From positions 1-24,745 of IMG/VR virus record IMGVR_UViG_3300026478_000689: a stretch of 24,745 nucleotides of DNA; one strand, 5' to 3'. Made by a program: the position numbers and the translations under genes. This document shows, piece after piece, positions 3,601-24,745 of this stretch. How positions within the stretch are numbered: the first letter of the stretch is position 1; every line of letters begins with the position of its first letter. This stretch comes from a virus. Under the pieces are notes generated by a model. That model was given only the letters and a program-made list of their open reading frames with translations. It was not told the origin of the DNA and did not search any database.

Positions 3601-6600
3601 GCCGCAATTAGCGGAGATTCCGTTGGTCAGGCTGTTTTAAGATCAGACGAAACTGCATTAACAACCATTATTGAAAATGGTAAAACATTTGCTCCAACAT
3701 TAACATTAACCAATCCAGCATCGTTAACAACAAATCAAGCAAATGCAAAGGCATTGTTATATGCAAACATTGGGTTTATTAGAGACGAAACAATTGGTTG
3801 GATTGCTGCACAAGTAGCAGGAAATATTTCACCGTTTACAACATCATTTACATATAATAGTGATCGTTGTTCTCGAGATGTTCAATATATTATCGAAGCT
3901 GTTCTTTATGACTTTACCTACGGTGGCAATAGTCAATCTAGAGATGCAGCATTAAAATATTATGACGGGGTTGGGGATTTAGAAGTTCTTCAATTAGGTG
4001 CAGGTGAAGAAGATGAAACTATAGCTGCAATAGGTTACGTAAAATACCTAGCTCAGCAGGTAGTCAGAAATCTTGCACCAGCATCAACATATTCAGCAAC
4101 ACCTAGACAAACCGGATCAGCCGGAACACTAACAGAAGCAACCACAATTGGCGGTTTAATTGACATTGTAATCAATGTTGTAACCAGCGGAACTAGTGCT
4201 GCTCCATCTGTAACATATCCAACATTAACTGGGTATAATGCTACTGCCCTTGCTTCAAGAACAGCATTGTTAGCAGCTAAAACAAGTATTCAATCCGATA
4301 CTATTGATTATATTAATTCATTAGCAAACGTATATGAAATTCTAATGCCTGGTAACAGATCTATGTTGGCCAATGACTTTACACAAGTTGCTGACATGGG
4401 CTATGGTATTATGGTTACCAACGGTGGCTTATTAGAAGCTGTGTCGGTTTTCACTTACTATTGTTATATTTCTTATTACGCATTAAATGGTGGGCAGATT
4501 CGTTCTGTATCAGGTTCAAGCGCACACGGTATCTATGCGTTGGTTGCTGAAGGATCTGATCCGTTAGAAATTCCAACACCGGTAAGTCTATATTATGATT
4601 TATCACAAGGTGCTTCGGTATATTTCCCAAGTGCGTTGTATGCAAATACTATTAACGGCCTTTCAATTTATATTAACAATTTCACCTATGTTCCATTAGG
4701 CAATGGTGAACTTGAGGTTATTCACACCGATGGAAACCTTTATAGATACTCTGTTAACTCAGTTGATACACAAGATTTACCAACCGGAGTAGCTAAACTT
4801 AATATTGCAAGTACTGGTAACTCAACAACAGCAGGTTTAGCCTATGCTGTTCCAAACGGTACTAAAGTTACTATTAGACAAAACTCTCAGGTTGTTTTAA
4901 CAGGTGATGTTGTTGAAGTTGCAACCAGACCGTCAACTGCTCTTAAATTAAATGAAACTGAAAGTGTTTATCGTGTTTTACAATTTGAAGAATATACAGA
5001 TGAAAATGGTGCTCAAGTTTGTACTATTACCACAGGTAATCCTGGAGTAATCAATTGTACAGCACACGGTCAAATTGCCGGATACATCATTTCGTTTAGT
5101 TCTACTGGAACATTGCCAACAGGCATAACCGCAGGAACTCGTTATTTTGTTATTAGCGAAGATATTTCAGAAAACACATTTAAAATTTCTGAATCACGAG
5201 GCGGAATTCCAATCGAAATTAGTTCTGCGGGAACAGGTACAATATCATTTGCACCATACGGCCTAGCAAGAACTACACTACGTGAAAACTATAACTACAT
5301 CGAATTAACACCTTGGTCTCCAAATGAATTTGTTGGTGCAACAAAAACATTTACCGTAACCGTTGCAGCACCTGCGGTGTTTACAAGTAGCAGCCACGGA
5401 TTGGCTTCGGGCGATGTAATTGCATTTACAACAACTGGTTCATTACCGGACGGATTGTCTATAACTAAGAATTACTTTGTTTTATCAACAGGATTAACTA
5501 CTTCATCATTTAGAGTTAGTTTAACTCCGGGAGGCGACCCTGCTGAAACTACAGGAACACAATCCGGAGTTCATAGTTGGGGCAAAGTAAAAGGAAGAGT
5601 AGGAGATAGTAACTTTGCTATTGTTCCAATTGGTCCAGAAGATAGAAACAGAATTGTTGGAACAAAATTTGTATGGATTGGTGTTGAATATACTATTATT
5701 CAATATGATGCAGAAGGTGTTACTAATGAACCTTATGCTAGAGTTTATTTAGATACTCCTCTGGTAAACGACATTTTAACATTCTCTAGTCCACCATCAC
5801 TAAAAGCTGGTGTTCCAATTAGAACATCTAATGCATCGGGATCATTAACTATTCGTATTTCGTTAACTCGTGTAACTGGGCACGATTTGTTAGAAATTGG
5901 TACAGGTTCGTATGCAGATACAAACTATCCAAACGAAATTTATGGTGCTGCGGTTAATCCGTTAAATCCTGCTACTGAAACAGCAGAAAGGGGTTCAGGA
6001 CGTACATTCTATGTAACCACTGACCAATTTGGTAACTTTAACGTAGGTCCGTATTTCCGTGTTGACCAAGGTACAGGTCGTGTAACATTCTCCGCAGCTA
6101 TTGCGTTGAGTAACTTAGATGGTATTGGTTTCAAACGTGGTGTTCCAATTGCTGAATTTTCAACAGATAGCTCATTCTCTGATAATGCTACTGATACGGT
6201 ACCAACAGAAAACGCTACAAGAATTTATTTAGAAAGAAGATTAGGTTTAACACACACCGGCGAAGTTGTTCCAGATACTCAATTGATACCTCAATTAACT
6301 GGTGGTTTCATGCCGTTAAATGGTAACTTGACCATGAACGGAGATATGGATCTTGGAAACAATAGAATTAAAAATGTTGACAATCCAGTTGAACTAACTG
6401 ATGCTGTTAATTTACAAAGTTTAACTTTAAACAATTTACAAGATTTTACTCCTGGAAATATTGCAGCCAACGATTTTGTTGTATTTACTGGTAGTGAAAA
6501 TGAAATTACTAATGCGTCTGTTGTAGGTGATATTTTATTTGATATCGATTCAACAGCTAATACCATTGATGCTCAGATTCAACCTGGTGTAATTGTTAAT

Positions 6601-20178: not shown

Positions 20179-20765
20179 CCAGCAATATCAATTATATCAG
20201 TATCAATGAAAACTTCCCTGTAGCAGGGCAAGATAACGACACACAGGTGTTTCGTGATAATTTTGATACTATTAAAACCAGCCTAAGTGCTGCCAAGACT
20301 GAAATAACAGATCTTCAAAATAACACAGCAAAATTAAACGATAACAACGATTTTGAAAAAAATGTTATTAGCAGAGCAATTTTTCAAGATAATAGAGATC
20401 AAAAGTTTGACGGGGGATCTGTTTCAACAGATATTACTATCGATTATCAAAATGGTCCATATCAAATTTATCGATTTGGTATTAACTCAAACGTTGATTT
20501 TTTAAATTTTCCAGGGGATCCTGTATTTGTTGACGAATTAACTCCACTAGGCGTCGGCAAGGTTACACTCGAATTATACGGTGACGGAACTTCAAGAACT
20601 ATTACCTTTGTTACAACCGGCGGAACAATTTTTAAGAAAAACGCTGCCGACGAATGGAGCGGAAATTCTATTGCAGTTCAATCTACAACAGATCCTATAT
20701 TTGTCGAAGTCTGGAGACATAGTTCAGAAAAAATATTTCTGAAATACGTTGGACAATTTAGTTAA
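20175..20765 (+). CDS. Structural protein with divergent N-terminal module (196 aa)
   Basis: The start is GTG at 20175, overlapping the preceding TGA by 4 nt (GTGA), with GGAG about ten nt upstream. The N-terminus (INENFPVAGQDNDTQVFRDN, then FDTIKTSLSAAKTEI) resembles the shared module of nearby structural genes in its 'N-D...FR-x-N-F-x-x-(I/L)' core, and continues as a probable helix or coiled coil to about residue 60. The rest is beta-like, with a G-x-V-T-L-E-L-Y-G-D-G-T-S-R-T-I-T-F stretch and a C-terminal strand KIFLKYVGQF. It is probably a small tail or fibre-base component; the exact role is unknown. It closes the structural block. Confidence 0.7.
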   Translation: MTSNINYISINENFPVAGQDNDTQVFRDNFDTIKTSLSAAKTEITDLQNNTAKLNDNNDFEKNVISRAIFQDNRDQKFDGGSVSTDITIDYQNGPYQIYRFGINSNVDFLNFPGDPVFVDELTPLGVGKVTLELYGDGTSRTITFVTTGGTIFKKNAADEWSGNSIAVQSTTDPIFVEVWRHSSEKIFLKYVGQFS

Positions 20766-20995
20766 TGTTTAATCCTCTTGTTGACAACCTTTCCGAACTC
20801 AAGGATCAAGAGATTGAAGAAAAAATCCTTGAGTTATCCAAAAAATATTTCCAAGCGCAACGTTTAGGAAAAATTGAGATGTTGACACAAATCGAAACTT
20901 TCATTATAATGTATAAAGATGAAAGGCAAAGAAGGCTCCACGCTAGGAAGTCTGATTTAGATAACGATTTGGATCAACTAATCAATGTTAGTTAA
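20765..20995 (+). CDS. Small helical protein of unknown function (76 aa)
   Basis: A highly charged, predicted all-helical protein: residues 8-32 (SELKDQEIEEKILELSKKYF) and 35-72 (rich in Glu, Lys and Arg, with DERQRRLHARKSD) could form a coiled coil. Its ATG shares one base with the previous stop (TAATG). Its 3' end overlaps the DnaE-like gene by 11 nt. A perfect sigma-70 promoter lies inside its coding sequence. No family is recognised. A small assembly or scaffolding helper is possible, as is an early regulator, but neither is shown by the sequence. Confidence 0.65.
   Translation: MFNPLVDNLSELKDQEIEEKILELSKKYFQAQRLGKIEMLTQIETFIIMYKDERQRRLHARKSDLDNDLDQLINVS
20882..20910 (+). promoter_or_regulatory. 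Perfect-consensus sigma-70 promoter (TTGACA-N17-TATAAT)
   Basis: TTGACA at 20882-20887 and TATAAT at 20905-20910 are separated by exactly 17 nt, the ideal bacterial housekeeping promoter. Transcription would start near 20917, 68 nt upstream of the DnaE-like gene at 20985. A 12-of-12 match with ideal spacing is very unlikely by chance in 25 kb. Inferred role: early, host-polymerase-driven expression of the genes from 20985 rightwards through gp44. Confidence 0.75.
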
Positions 20996-21455
20996 AAATA
21001 CAGAATCACAATTAATCGAAGGTATTCTACGACACGGTCCTGAAATATTGGAAAATTGTGTTGTAGATCCTAACGATGTTTCTTTGTATTTTGAACGCTT
21101 ATATTCAGAACATCTAAATTATCCAATTCCAAAAGATAATATTGACATTAATCATTGGAATATTCCAGATGAGTATAAGACTATGGATATATTAGATTGG
21201 TTATATATGCAATGTCCTACTCCAGAAATTCGAGAACGAGTTGTTGAGGAACTAAGACTTTTTGCCAAATACGATATGATTTTAATGTTAAAAGCAATGA
21301 AATACGTTGTAGACACATTAAGAAAAAATAACGTTATTTGGGGTGTAGGACGTGGAAGTTCTGTAGCAAGTTATGTACTCTATTTGATAGGGGTACATAA
21401 GATAGATAGTATTAAATACAAATTACCAATAGAAGAATTCTTCAAGGAGATTTAA
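20985..21455 (+). CDS. Stand-alone fragment related to DNA polymerase III alpha (DnaE/PolC, C-family)
   Basis: The C-terminal part matches a conserved block of bacterial C-family polymerases: residues 120-137 (GVGRGSSVASYVLYLIGV) followed by KIDSIKYKLPIEEFF (139-153), equivalent to the DnaE pattern V-G-x-G-R-G-S-x-x-x-S-L-V-x-Y-x-L-x-I-T-x-(V/L)-D-P-x-x-(Y/F)-x-L-x-F-E-R-F. The preceding helix (about 93-115) also fits. The full polymerase has over 1000 residues; here there are 156, and the catalytic aspartates that lie downstream in DnaE are absent, so it cannot polymerise DNA on its own. It may bind nucleotides or DNA or interfere with the host replisome; that is inference. The ORF is intact and overlaps its upstream neighbour by 11 nt, so it is not an obvious pseudogene. 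Confidence 0.65.
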   Translation: MLVKNTESQLIEGILRHGPEILENCVVDPNDVSLYFERLYSEHLNYPIPKDNIDINHWNIPDEYKTMDILDWLYMQCPTPEIRERVVEELRLFAKYDMILMLKAMKYVVDTLRKNNVIWGVGRGSSVASYVLYLIGVHKIDSIKYKLPIEEFFKEI

Positions 21456-21456
21456 G

Positions 21457-21684
21457 ATGGGTAAAACATATACAAGCCTACGTGGCAAAGATATTGATAT
21501 GGAAAAGTTAAATTTACAAAATGAATTGTTGCCTGCTGTAGGAAACATGAAAGTAAATGCAAGGGGCGATGAATTAGGCCCAGGTGGAAAAGTTGTAAAA
21601 ACTAGAGAACAAATTCTCCAAGATTACTATGCTTCAAATCCACGAGCAGTTAAAGAAGACATCCCAACACGCAAAAAAGGTTAA
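21457..21684 (+). CDS. Small protein of unknown function (75 aa)
   Basis: A hydrophilic, low-complexity protein, rich in Lys, Gly and Asn, with GDELGPGGKVVKTREQI in the middle and a basic end (TRKKG). It has no membrane segment, signal peptide or recognisable catalytic motif, and appears partly unstructured. Translation is well supported: AAGGAG precedes the ATG and the gene starts two bases after the DnaE-like stop. It is followed three nt later by the GroES-like gene, so the three are probably one transcript. I do not recognise the family. Confidence 0.65.
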   Translation: MGKTYTSLRGKDIDMEKLNLQNELLPAVGNMKVNARGDELGPGGKVVKTREQILQDYYASNPRAVKEDIPTRKKG

Positions 21685-21687
21685 CCT

Positions 21688-22077
21688 ATGAGTTATGATG
21701 TTAAGCACATTAAAATTCGTGCCATTAATGATGATGTTATCATTTCTGACATGGATTTTGGTGAGCAGGTAACCAAGACAGGCATTGTTATTCAAAGCGA
21801 CGATGCCAAAGTTCACGGAATTAAACCGCGATGGGGCAAGGTATACAAAGTTGGTCCAAAACAAACTGATGTTAAAGAAGGCCAATGGATTTTAGTAGAG
21901 CACGGTCGCTGGACTCGTAAGATCAAAATCGATGACGGTGACGGTGTTAAAGAAATTCAAAAAGTAGATATTAAATGTATACTAGCTGTATCTGATGAAA
22001 AACCAAACGATTTTTATATCGGTACAGAACATTCTAACGGATCAAGCGTTAACATTAGGCCAGAAGATTTTCTATAA
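21688..22077 (+). CDS. GroES/gp31-like co-chaperonin
   Basis: The sequence follows the GroES fold in order: an N-terminal strand IKIRAINDDVIISD (GroES IRPLHDRVxV), a mobile loop with the GroEL-contacting hydrophobic triplet in TKTGIVI (about residues 28-36), the strand WGKVYKVGPKQ (GroES GxVxAVGxG), the segment VKEGQWILVEHGRWTRKIKI (GroES VKxGDxVxFxxxxGxxxKxD), and a closing IKCILAVSD (GroES DILAIV). At 129 residues it is longer than GroES (97) and T4 gp31 (111), with a C-terminal extension of about 25 residues. In T4, gp31 replaces GroES so that host GroEL can fold the capsid protein; the same role is inferred. AAGG precedes the start. Confidence 0.85.
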   Translation: MSYDVKHIKIRAINDDVIISDMDFGEQVTKTGIVIQSDDAKVHGIKPRWGKVYKVGPKQTDVKEGQWILVEHGRWTRKIKIDDGDGVKEIQKVDIKCILAVSDEKPNDFYIGTEHSNGSSVNIRPEDFL

Positions 22078-22319
22078 TGGCTTTTAAACAAAATTGGGAT
22101 ACTCCCGACATCATAAATCAACTTCGGTCGTTGTCCAGAGAGTGTTCTAGTGTGTATAACGATGGATTTACTTCTTTTGAGATTAAGAAAGAACTTTATC
22201 TTATAAAAGAAGTAGTTGACAAAGCATTACAGGATTCTCCCAATTTTGGACATCTTGAACAAGAATGGCTCGATGACCGTGAAAAGAAAAAAGTAATATC
22301 AATTTTAAAAAAGAGTTAA
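22077..22319 (+). CDS. Small helical protein of unknown function (80 aa)
   Basis: A small, probably all-helical, acidic and basic protein (IKKELYLIKEVVDKAL in the middle, KKKVISILKKS at the end). It starts on the last base of the GroES-like stop (TAATG) and ends one base before the pyrophosphohydrolase gene, so it is translationally embedded in the operon. No motif points to an activity. It may be a small partner of a neighbouring protein, but nothing in the sequence decides this. Confidence 0.65.
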   Translation: MAFKQNWDTPDIINQLRSLSRECSSVYNDGFTSFEIKKELYLIKEVVDKALQDSPNFGHLEQEWLDDREKKKVISILKKS

Positions 22320-22320
22320 T

Positions 22321-22689
22321 ATGACAAATCCATTTCGTGACCAAGAAAAATTTATGCGAGCCTGCGACCAATCAGTCGAAGGCTTTAATCAAAATCAGTT
22401 TAAATTATATCTCGATTTAATGGAAGAAGAATGGAAAGAATTGAAGGTAGCGATCGACAATAACGATCAGGTTGAAACACTTGATGCGCTGTTAGACTTT
22501 ATTGTTGTTACCGTAGGCGCTATCCATTCGGCCGGTTTCGATGGCGAGGGCGGTTGGAAAGAAGTTATGCGTACCAATTTTGCTAAAATAGATTCAGAGA
22601 CTGGCAAGGTACGTAAACGTGAAGATGGCAAAGTGCTAAAACCTTTAGGGTGGACTCCTCCAGACCTAAAACCATTTATTAATAAATGA
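22321..22689 (+). CDS. MazG-like / all-alpha NTP pyrophosphohydrolase
   Basis: All-alpha NTP pyrophosphohydrolases (MazG, dUTPase-2, HisE) coordinate magnesium with an E-E-x-x-E helix and a following D/E-x-x-x-D helix. Both are visible: L-M-E-E-E-W-K-E (33-40) and T-L-D55-A-L-L-D59, followed by the hydrophobic helix FIVVTVGAIHSAG. The protein is 122 residues, the size of a single-domain enzyme. Phage members are thought to hydrolyse non-canonical or alarmone-type nucleotides, or to balance nucleotide pools; substrate cannot be read here. The tail (GKVLKPLGWTPPDL) is typical of phage HisE/MazG-type proteins with a 'P-x-G-W-x-P-P-D' end. AAGAG lies upstream; the stop overlaps the next start (ATGA). 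Confidence 0.75.
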   Translation: MTNPFRDQEKFMRACDQSVEGFNQNQFKLYLDLMEEEWKELKVAIDNNDQVETLDALLDFIVVTVGAIHSAGFDGEGGWKEVMRTNFAKIDSETGKVRKREDGKVLKPLGWTPPDLKPFINK

Positions 22690-23483
22690 TAAGAATTTTT
22701 GTCATTCTTTTTCTTTTAATTCCGTCAGCCTTTGCAAATGTTCCTTCATATTACGTATATAATCAAACACAAAAAGAAATTGTTGTTGGAGAATATGCAG
22801 GAATACAAAGGCCGATAGCATCTCTTACTAAATTAATGACTGCGCTGGTAGTTGTTAATTCAAATTTAGATTTACAAGAAAAAGTATTATATCGTGGAGG
22901 AATCTTTAGATCCAAAAATGTCTCTCGACGGGATCTACTCGATTCTCTATTAATCAAAAGCGATAACGCTGCTGCCGAAGCATTAGCACATAGTTGGCCT
23001 GGTGGCCGTACAGCGTTTATCGACGAAATGAATAATACCGCAAGATCACTTGGCATGAATAATACATCATACTCTGATCCGTCAGGGCTTGATAAACATA
23101 ATATTAGTACAGCCTTTGACTTGTCAAAATTGGTAGAAGAATCATCAAAAAATAATTTAATTACATCTAGCTCATCATCAAAATATCTAACCATCGAAAC
23201 CAAAACTAAAAAGAAAATATCTTATGCATCTGTAGGCAATACTAATAAAAATCTTTTATTTGAATTTGATAATATCATTCTTAGCAAAACCGGTTATACT
23301 AATCCTGCAGGACGTTGTTTGGCATTACTAGTTGAAAAATCCAATAATAAATTTGTTATTATTATTCTTGGAGAAAAAACGGTAATCGATAGAGAAAAAA
23401 GAGCTAGACAACTCATTAATAATTATGTTACTATAAAAGAAAAGGATTTAGATGAAAATCGGTTTTACTTGCTCAACTTTTGA
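22686..23483 (+). CDS. Secreted D-alanyl-D-alanine carboxypeptidase (S11, PBP5-like)
   Basis: A penicillin-binding serine peptidase that removes the terminal D-Ala of peptidoglycan stem peptides. All three active-site motifs are intact: S46-L-T-K49 (SxxK), S92-D-N94 (SxN) and K201-T-G203 (KTG). The S11-typical 'DPSGLD' follows the second motif. The first ~17 residues are a Sec signal peptide (MIRIFVILFLLIPSAFA, cleavage likely after AFA), so the enzyme acts in the periplasm. At 265 residues it holds only the catalytic domain, without the C-terminal domain and membrane anchor of cellular PBP5 (about 400). It starts by ATGA overlap with the pyrophosphohydrolase gene and overlaps the next gene by 32 nt. 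Phage lysins are usually other enzyme classes, so a role in envelope remodelling or lysis support is inferred. Confidence 0.9.
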   Translation: MIRIFVILFLLIPSAFANVPSYYVYNQTQKEIVVGEYAGIQRPIASLTKLMTALVVVNSNLDLQEKVLYRGGIFRSKNVSRRDLLDSLLIKSDNAAAEALAHSWPGGRTAFIDEMNNTARSLGMNNTSYSDPSGLDKHNISTAFDLSKLVEESSKNNLITSSSSSKYLTIETKTKKKISYASVGNTNKNLLFEFDNIILSKTGYTNPAGRCLALLVEKSNNKFVIIILGEKTVIDREKRARQLINNYVTIKEKDLDENRFYLLNF

Positions 23484-23895
23484 TCTGTTCCATGCAGGGC
23501 ATATCATGATGCTCAAAGAAGCAAAGACTCAATGCGATCATTTGATTGTGGGTCTACAAACAGATCCTACAATTGATCGTCCTGGAATCAAAAACAAACC
23601 AGTTCAAAGCGTATTTGAACGCTACGAACAACTTAAAGCCTGCAAATATGTTGATGAAATCCTTGTCTACGAAACAGAACAAGATCTTATAAACATCTTG
23701 CTTTCCTATCCTATTAATGTTAGAATATTAGGAGACGAATATGAACACGAAGATTTTACAGGTAGAAACGAATGTTGGGATAAAGGTATTGAATTTTATT
23801 TCAACAAACGTGAACACAATTTTTCAACCAGCGAACTACGTCAGCGAGTTATTGCCGCTGAAATTAATAAGGGATTAAAAAATGACAGAATATGA
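23452..23895 (+). CDS. TagD-like nucleotidyltransferase (glycerol-3-phosphate cytidylyltransferase type)
   Basis: Members of this family join CTP with a phosphorylated alcohol or sugar to give a CDP-activated product. Visible are the N-terminal strand and loop KIGFTCSTFDLFHAGH with the H14-A-G-H17 signature, the helix MMLKEAKTQCDHLIVGL, the segment PVQSVFERYEQLKACKYVDE typical of TagD/HldE-C, and a C-terminal NFSTSELRQRV in place of the R-T-x-G-I-S-T-T motif. Length (147) matches stand-alone TagD (about 130). The usual 'G-T-F-D' is C-S-T-F-D. A ribosome-binding site (AAGGA) lies within the preceding carboxypeptidase gene. The product may be a membrane, capsule or LPS precursor; adenylyl transfer is also possible. 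Confidence 0.8.
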   Translation: MKIGFTCSTFDLFHAGHIMMLKEAKTQCDHLIVGLQTDPTIDRPGIKNKPVQSVFERYEQLKACKYVDEILVYETEQDLINILLSYPINVRILGDEYEHEDFTGRNECWDKGIEFYFNKREHNFSTSELRQRVIAAEINKGLKNDRI

Positions 23896-24133
23896 ACAAA
23901 ATATTGAAATTATGAAAGACCTAAGAGCACGATTAGATAAGGTCATTAACTCAGATAAAAAAGACGAATCAAAATCTAAAATTCCAGATCCTGTAAAACA
24001 CAAATACATCAGTTTTGTAAAAAGCGGATTGAGAATTCTTGCAGGTGCAACTTTAATGCTAGGTGATTTTTATATTGCTGGCGGACTTTTTATTGTTGCA
24101 GAAGTATTAGGCGTTATTGAAGAAATGGTTTGA
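23882..24133 (+). CDS. Small membrane protein (83 aa)
   Basis: The first ~42 residues are charged and helical (EIMKDLRARLDKVI; KKDESKSKI), and the last ~36 are hydrophobic and glycine-containing (LRILAGATLMLG, then YIAGGLFIVAEVLGVI), which could form one long or two short membrane helices with an acidic end. Its start overlaps the cytidylyltransferase by 14 nt and is preceded by AAGGGA. Size, a charged N-terminus and the neighbouring peptidoglycan enzyme would allow a holin or anti-superinfection role, but no specific holin signature is visible. Function is therefore unassigned. Confidence 0.65.
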   Translation: MTEYEQNIEIMKDLRARLDKVINSDKKDESKSKIPDPVKHKYISFVKSGLRILAGATLMLGDFYIAGGLFIVAEVLGVIEEMV

Positions 24134-24267
24134 TGTATAAAGTGTATTATTATATTACCAATAAATTAAGAAGCAAAACATTTCCTTCAATGCACGAAGC
24201 TGTTATGTTTGCAATATTTAAAGTTGGGTATGATCAATGCGGTGAAATTATAAAGGTAAAAGAATGA
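24133..24267 (+). CDS. 44-residue protein of unknown function
   Basis: A short ORF starting on the last base of the preceding TGA (TGATG) and overlapping the gp44 start by 4 nt (ATGA). The product, from MYKVYYYITNKL to CGEIIKVKE, is aromatic near the N-terminus and basic overall, and looks like a small folded alpha/beta protein. It exactly fills the gap between its neighbours in the coupled style of this operon, which is the main evidence that it is real. No Shine-Dalgarno is visible, so translation would depend on the upstream gene. Confidence 0.55.
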   Translation: MYKVYYYITNKLRSKTFPSMHEAVMFAIFKVGYDQCGEIIKVKE

Positions 24268-24745
24268 AAGAATTGTGGGTAGAAAAATATCGTCCAGCAA
24301 ACATAGATGGTTATGTATTTCGTGACGACCATCAACGCAAACAAGTGCAAACATGGATTAAAGATAAAAGTATTCCGCATTTGCTGTTAAGCGGTAGTGC
24401 TGGCATTGGTAAAACTACTCTTGCTAAAATTCTTATTCGAGAATTAGGTATTGAAGATTATGATGTGTTAGAAATTAACGCATCGCGTACAAACTCTGTA
24501 GACGACGTTAGAGATAAAATCACTAACTTTGTGCAAATGATTCCATTTGGTCCATTCAAGGTTGTACTACTTGATGAGGCCGACTATCTTTCACCTAACG
24601 CACAGGCAGCACTTCGCGGTGTAATGGAAGAATATCATGCAACAGCTCGCTTCATTCTTACTTGTAACTATCCCAATCGTATTATTCCTGCTATACATTC
24701 GCGGTGTCAAGGCTTCCACGTCGAACGTACTGATATTACAGAGTT
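24264..24745 (+). CDS. 44: Sliding-clamp loader ATPase, gp44 family (5' part, cut by window end)
   Basis: The AAA+ large subunit of the T4-type clamp loader, which with gp62 opens and loads the gp45 sliding clamp. The first 160 residues are present of about 320. It opens with LWVEKYRP, the usual start of RFC/gp44 proteins. Walker A is G44-S-A-G-I-G-K-T-T52, Walker B is VVLLDEAD (100-107), sensor 1 is ILTCNYPNRI (131-140), and the arginine-finger SRC motif is S146-R-C. AAGG lies upstream of the ATG at 24264. It overlaps the preceding small ORF by 4 nt and is the last gene of the coupled run, consistent with expression from the sigma-70 promoter at 20882. Confidence 0.95.
   Translation, partial: MKELWVEKYRPANIDGYVFRDDHQRKQVQTWIKDKSIPHLLLSGSAGIGKTTLAKILIRELGIEDYDVLEINASRTNSVDDVRDKITNFVQMIPFGPFKVVLLDEADYLSPNAQAALRGVMEEYHATARFILTCNYPNRIIPAIHSRCQGFHVERTDITE

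Follow-up and report, generated by a model that had tools for sequence, protein, structure and literature searches.

The stretch of viral DNA analysed here (24,745 nt, referred to below as the window) contains, downstream of tail-fibre and baseplate-type genes, a small plus-strand gene of the PHROG 15348 family (20765-20995). Its 76 codons enclose the sequence TTGACA-CAAATCGAAACTTTCAT-TATAAT (20882-20910, plus strand), the ORF coordinates confirming the intragenic position that the original prediction had given for a perfect sigma-70 promoter. The first gene downstream (20985-21455, plus strand) encodes a fragment-sized protein of 156 aa that matches phage DnaE (Pol III alpha) families; the site does lie upstream of it, as had been claimed, with 74 nt rather than 75 nt between the -10 hexamer and the ATG at 20985. 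It is followed by genes for a 75-aa protein, a GroES-like, gp31-type co-chaperonin (21688-22077, plus strand; phrog_931 and phrog_3188), an 80-aa protein and a MazG-like pyrophosphohydrolase (22321-22689, plus strand; phrog_671), and then by genes for a peptidase-like protein, a nucleotidyltransferase-like protein, an 83-aa protein and a gp44-type clamp loader (24264-24743, plus strand; phrog_168), the last of which runs off the window. Every gene assigned between 20985 and the gp44-like ORF was found on the plus strand, and a hairpin scan of that strand from 20882 to 24745 returned no terminator-like hairpin, in agreement with the proposal of a same-strand block without a visible terminator.

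The order of a small PHROG 15348-type gene, a DnaE fragment, a GroES-like chaperonin and a clamp loader is also that of the cultured jumbo phage 121Q (Asteriusvirus), and the cultured jumbo phage PAC2 (Wroclawvirus) shares the block order of the window with one extra gene before DnaE. The DnaE-like piece itself (20985-21455) is a stand-alone protein of 156 aa carrying the motif GRGSSVASYVLYLIG; it is conserved between these phages and cultured jumbo phages, where it occurs within the same block of genes. The small protein of the window matched the PHROG 15348 profile (E 1.3e-4), 14 of 14 relatives matched the profile too, and gene 55 of 121Q is a strong member of the family (E 6e-55). An AlphaFold model of the small protein, of fair confidence, predicted a helical hairpin. 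The late co-activator gp33 of T4 was considered as an identity for the small gene and rejected: a PDB sequence search gave no gp33 match, gp33 was missing among the listed fold matches, and the hhalign probability was below 1%. Pfam matches to the small protein were weak, scattered and, where a cut-off is printed, below it, and were judged to be noise. Searches of the window against named phages by near-DNA similarity gave no match, those with the small protein gave nothing or noise only, and a search of bacterial genomes for relatives from which the host might be inferred found none.

The promoter-like sequence and its chance expectation

The site consists of three plus-strand parts: a -35 hexamer TTGACA (20882-20887), spelled by the Leu-Thr codons TTG ACA of the small gene; a 17-nt spacer (20888-20904), the codons of which vary among relatives at constant length; and a -10 hexamer TATAAT (20905-20910) within the Ile-Ile-Met codons ATT ATA ATG, where most relatives have TACAAT (Thr for Ile). 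The claimed match at 12 of 12 positions was upheld, and with spacings of 15-19 nt allowed no other perfect site occurs in the window. Against the sigma-70 consensus the -35 hexamer matches at 6 of 6 positions, as does the -10 hexamer of the window, and T(-12), A(-11) and T(-7), the most important bases for sigma-70, are invariant in the relatives; the spacing is 17 nt at all sites, within the 16-18 nt range of such promoters. An extended -10 element (TGn) is absent from the site of the window, where CAT precedes TATAAT, and is present in many relatives, the common V47 form yielding TGT before TACAAT. By standard sigma-70 geometry, initiation would be expected at about 20917 (plus strand), some 7 nt past the -10 hexamer, giving a predicted 5' untranslated region of about 68 nt.

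Taken alone, the perfect match is suggestive only and constitutes weak evidence for a promoter, because a perfect site also turns up in about 6% of shuffled windows: dinucleotide-shuffled windows contained a mean of 0.06 such sites (five spacings, both strands), with at least one in 6 of 100. The 0.0015 matches per strand given in the original prediction assumed equal bases; corrected for composition, the expectation is about 0.006 per strand per spacing, approximately fourfold higher. An alternative explanation was that a match had arisen by chance and been kept by the need of the protein for the residues L-T-Q...I-I-M. The shuffled windows lend this some room, the amino acids Leu40, Thr41 and Gln42 are invariant in the clade of the window, and a protein-driven look-alike does exist, namely a reverse-strand TTGACA-N18-AATAAT in the gp44 gene that tracks the conserved gp44 coding sequence.

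Codon conservation in the clade of the window

Relatives were retrieved from IMG/VR with the small protein, the DnaE-like protein and clade alignments as queries, and yielded 123 distinct small-gene DNA variants, 70 from the clade of the window and 53 from a sister clade; the two are split by a fully supported branch in a DnaE tree. All 70 variants in the former carried TTGACA-N17 at the same codons, followed by TACAAT (60), TATAAT (8) or TAATAT (2). Relatives with the same gene order but without the hexamers would have spoken against the original prediction; they were looked for, and both hexamers were found to be kept in 70/70. The 12/12 site of the window is a lineage-level upgrade of the usual 11/12 form, in which a change of Thr48 ACA to Ile ATA turned TACAAT into TATAAT.

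Conservation of an amino acid leaves its codon free, yet Leu40 was TTG and Thr41 was ACA in every variant (70/70 each) and Thr48, where present, was always ACA (60/60), while leucine elsewhere in the gene was spread over all six codons. Val47, the final T of which is the first base of the -10 hexamer, was likewise GTT in 52/52. The codons of the spacer drift: Gln42, directly adjacent to the frozen pair and itself invariant as a residue, was CAA in 36 variants and CAG in 34, and Leu43 used six codons. By parsimony on a tree of 68 tips, no codon change was counted at Leu40, Thr41 or Thr48. The remaining six-fold columns, ten in number, each underwent 12-31 changes, and the remaining four-fold columns 10-28. 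Of the 18 columns of these two kinds, exactly the three that encode the hexamers were free of change, an outcome with a probability of 1 in 816 for a random draw. Loci fetched via the DnaE gene alone, and hence unbiased for the small gene, gave the same result. The expectation that the hexamers would be conserved beyond the protein-coding constraint was thereby borne out, the critical codons having undergone no synonymous change. Short of some other function at the level of DNA or RNA that would account for it, this codon pattern refutes the suggestion that protein conservation alone preserved a chance match, which is scarcely credible. Whereas the match alone is suggestive, its conservation is convincing.

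A function of that kind, in which the frozen bases would represent another nucleic-acid signal (a protein-binding site or RNA element) that resembles a promoter, was also considered. Two nearby codons off the hexamers, Lys27 (AAA, 70/70) and Asp74 (GAT, 56/56), are frozen as well, as would fit a signal of another type. However, outside a few such codons, freezing is confined to the bases of the two hexamers, which keep a constant distance of 17 nt across a drifting spacer, and the -10 variants that are tolerated are those that sigma-70 accepts. The same hexamers and spacing also occur in the sister clade in unrelated surroundings, and this explanation was considered very improbable. In the same gene, Gln75 was CAA in 65/67, and Asn78 (AAT) is frozen because the ATG of the next gene overlaps it.

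A differently placed site in the sister clade

At the position corresponding to the site of the window, the residues of the sister clade differ (no L-T) and no promoter was found. In 52 of its 53 variants, however, TTGACA-N17-TAAAAT, -TAAACT or -TAATAT was present at the 3' end of the small gene. The -35 hexamer is there spelled by Leu-CTT, Asp-GAC and the following A, and the -10 hexamer overlaps the stop codon. Leu76 was CTT, Asp77 was GAC and the stop codon was TAA in 53/53 each, as compared with stop codons of TAA (44), TGA (25) and TAG (1) in the clade of the window. With 41 sister-clade tips, the Leu76 and Asp77 codons were the only zero-change columns among 35. The exception, L006, has a 9/12 form in the same place. 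A clade that lacks L-T at the original position thus has a locked promoter of its own, which again argues against a chance match held by protein conservation. The promoter is kept but differently placed between the sister clades, and is equally constrained in both. From its -10 hexamer to the next ATG, the sister-clade site leaves 6 nt in 43 of 44 measurable cases.

On the basis of the observed presence and position of the site, the constraint on its codons, its fixed 17-nt spacing and the separate, constrained site of the sister clade, it very probably represents a true promoter for host sigma-70 polymerase that serves the DnaE-like/GroES-like/MazG/gp44 block. The host RNA polymerase holoenzyme would bind TTGACA-N17-TATAAT within the reading frame, in the 3' half of the small gene, which is the last one ahead of the replication block, and the DnaE-like gene and the same-strand block as far as gp44 would be transcribed independently of tail-gene transcripts; activity, start point and the extent of the transcript over the whole block are predicted from sequence. 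Selection on a promoter placed within coding sequence would act through codon choice and partly through amino-acid choice, such that the Leu-TTG, Thr-ACA and -10 codons are frozen while the remaining gene drifts. If so, the site gives a direct prediction of the way in which these uncultured phages turn on their replication block.

The broader reading, towards which we lean with some reserve, is that a large uncultured group of T4-like or jumbo-type phages encodes host sigma-70 promoters within the codons of its small genes, that selection may fix codons and even amino acids for this purpose, that promoter positions in one and the same gene differ between sister clades, and that the sister-clade promoter, ending 6 nt before an ATG, would give a leaderless mRNA for the replication block. 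Strong sigma-70 promoters in phages and promoters inside genes are both already known; the present case is of value for how strong its evidence is and what form this takes, and because sites of this type can be excluded by published annotation rules. In a survey of 26 T4-like genomes, for example, promoters had to be intergenic or no more than 10 bp from an ORF end (PMC3037559). Intragenic promoters are discarded in standard phage annotation. As regulatory elements of a phage group they can be strongly conserved, and codon-level conservation can reveal them without transcript data.

Promoter class and related sites in other contigs

In eight long relative contigs (L275-L309, L311-L348), 262 sites matching the consensus at 11 or more of 12 positions (spacing 16-18) were counted, as compared with 81 for the reversed and 57 for the scrambled motif. 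These sites are biased to the coding strand, are dense in small-gene clusters and favour positions 25-40 or 5-7 nt before start codons. It follows from this excess that use of the canonical sigma-70 consensus is widespread in these phages, the site of the window being one member of the set. In one region (G003, 189-209 kb; L299 and L300), about 25 near-perfect sigma-70 promoters were seen in 20 kb, all on one strand and preceding small ORFs; this is likely to be an early, host-takeover region.

The site of the window resembles T4 early promoters in its near-perfect -35 and -10 hexamers for the host sigma-70 polymerase and in the many coding-strand copies of the motif ahead of small genes, and differs from that class (UP/-35/TGn/-10) in being embedded in a reading frame and, in the window, in lacking TGn. 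Transcription from the site may be of early or middle timing. An appreciable possibility, if not the one we would expect, is that the promoter is real but middle or constitutive (for example modulated by a phage factor) and not immediate-early. It precedes replication genes, and those of T4 depend largely on middle transcription or on early transcripts that are extended into them (PMC2988021); it also stands isolated from a dense cluster of early type such as that of G003. Set against this, T4 middle promoters have a MotA box in place of the -35 element (PMC2988021), the full -35 and -10 hexamers are present here, and the small-gene cluster uses the same consensus throughout. The T4 middle class was not assigned to the site, given its complete TTGACA, and neither was the T4 late class, which has the -10 sequence TATAAATA and no -35 element. 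The TATAAATA motif was not enriched in four long relative contigs, and the proposal that late transcription enters the block from the left gains no support from it.

The site could alternatively serve replication, with its transcript priming an origin at the boundary between the structural and replication genes. Some T4 origins are primed by middle-promoter transcripts, and a very strong, conserved promoter at the start of the replication block would suit such a role. A second intragenic promoter some 1.3 kb downstream and the many sites of this type across the contigs are in keeping with ordinary gene expression instead, and a role as an origin was judged improbable. Promoters inside coding sequence occur in compact phages such as T7. 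As in T7-type intragenic promoters, bases are shared by promoter and codons and the next gene is served; the present site differs in being a host sigma-70 promoter, in the freezing of codons across 70 lineages and in the other position adopted in the sister clade.

The second intragenic site, TTGACA-N17-TATCAT or -TATAAT, likewise conserved, was found 1.2-1.4 kb downstream of the small gene in most relatives from the clade of the window. It spells L-T-[E/D]-Q-E-[K/Q]-K-R-I inside the 79-80-aa gene preceding MazG, and usually lies 23-36 nt upstream of the next ATG (for example in L039, L041 and L042). It is absent from the window, near 22270, and from its nearest relative, L003; in both, the end of the chaperonin gene carries TTAACA- or TTGATA-N18-TATAAT instead. 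In the window this is an 11/12 site, TTAACA-N18-TATAAT (22049-22078, plus strand), that is possibly a replacement of the second intragenic promoter of the relatives. Together these cases point to repeated turnover of promoter positions while gene order stays constant. In the 121Q small gene, a phrog_15348 relative, no strong site was present at the position of the window's promoter, and in Pseudomonas phage PAC2 (L351) 12/12 sites were located at 367-396, immediately before the PHROG 15348-like gene, and at 1496-1524, inside the DnaE-like gene. Among the cultured jumbo phages with this block, L350 has a candidate site at 1825-1854.

Neither this promoter nor a leaderless class in T4-like phages turned up in searches of the open-access literature. 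Among the 262 contig sites, 32 had a -10 hexamer exactly 5-7 nt from an open ATG (20 of them at 6 nt), as compared with 1.5% of random positions (5-8 nt). Promoters of this kind are predicted to give leaderless mRNAs, since with standard geometry a gap of 5-7 nt would place the first transcribed base at the start codon. One member of this class is the sister-clade promoter (such as that before the L015 DnaE gene, 4235-4249); the promoter of the window falls outside it. Some of the 5-7-nt sites recur ahead of seemingly the same genes across contigs.
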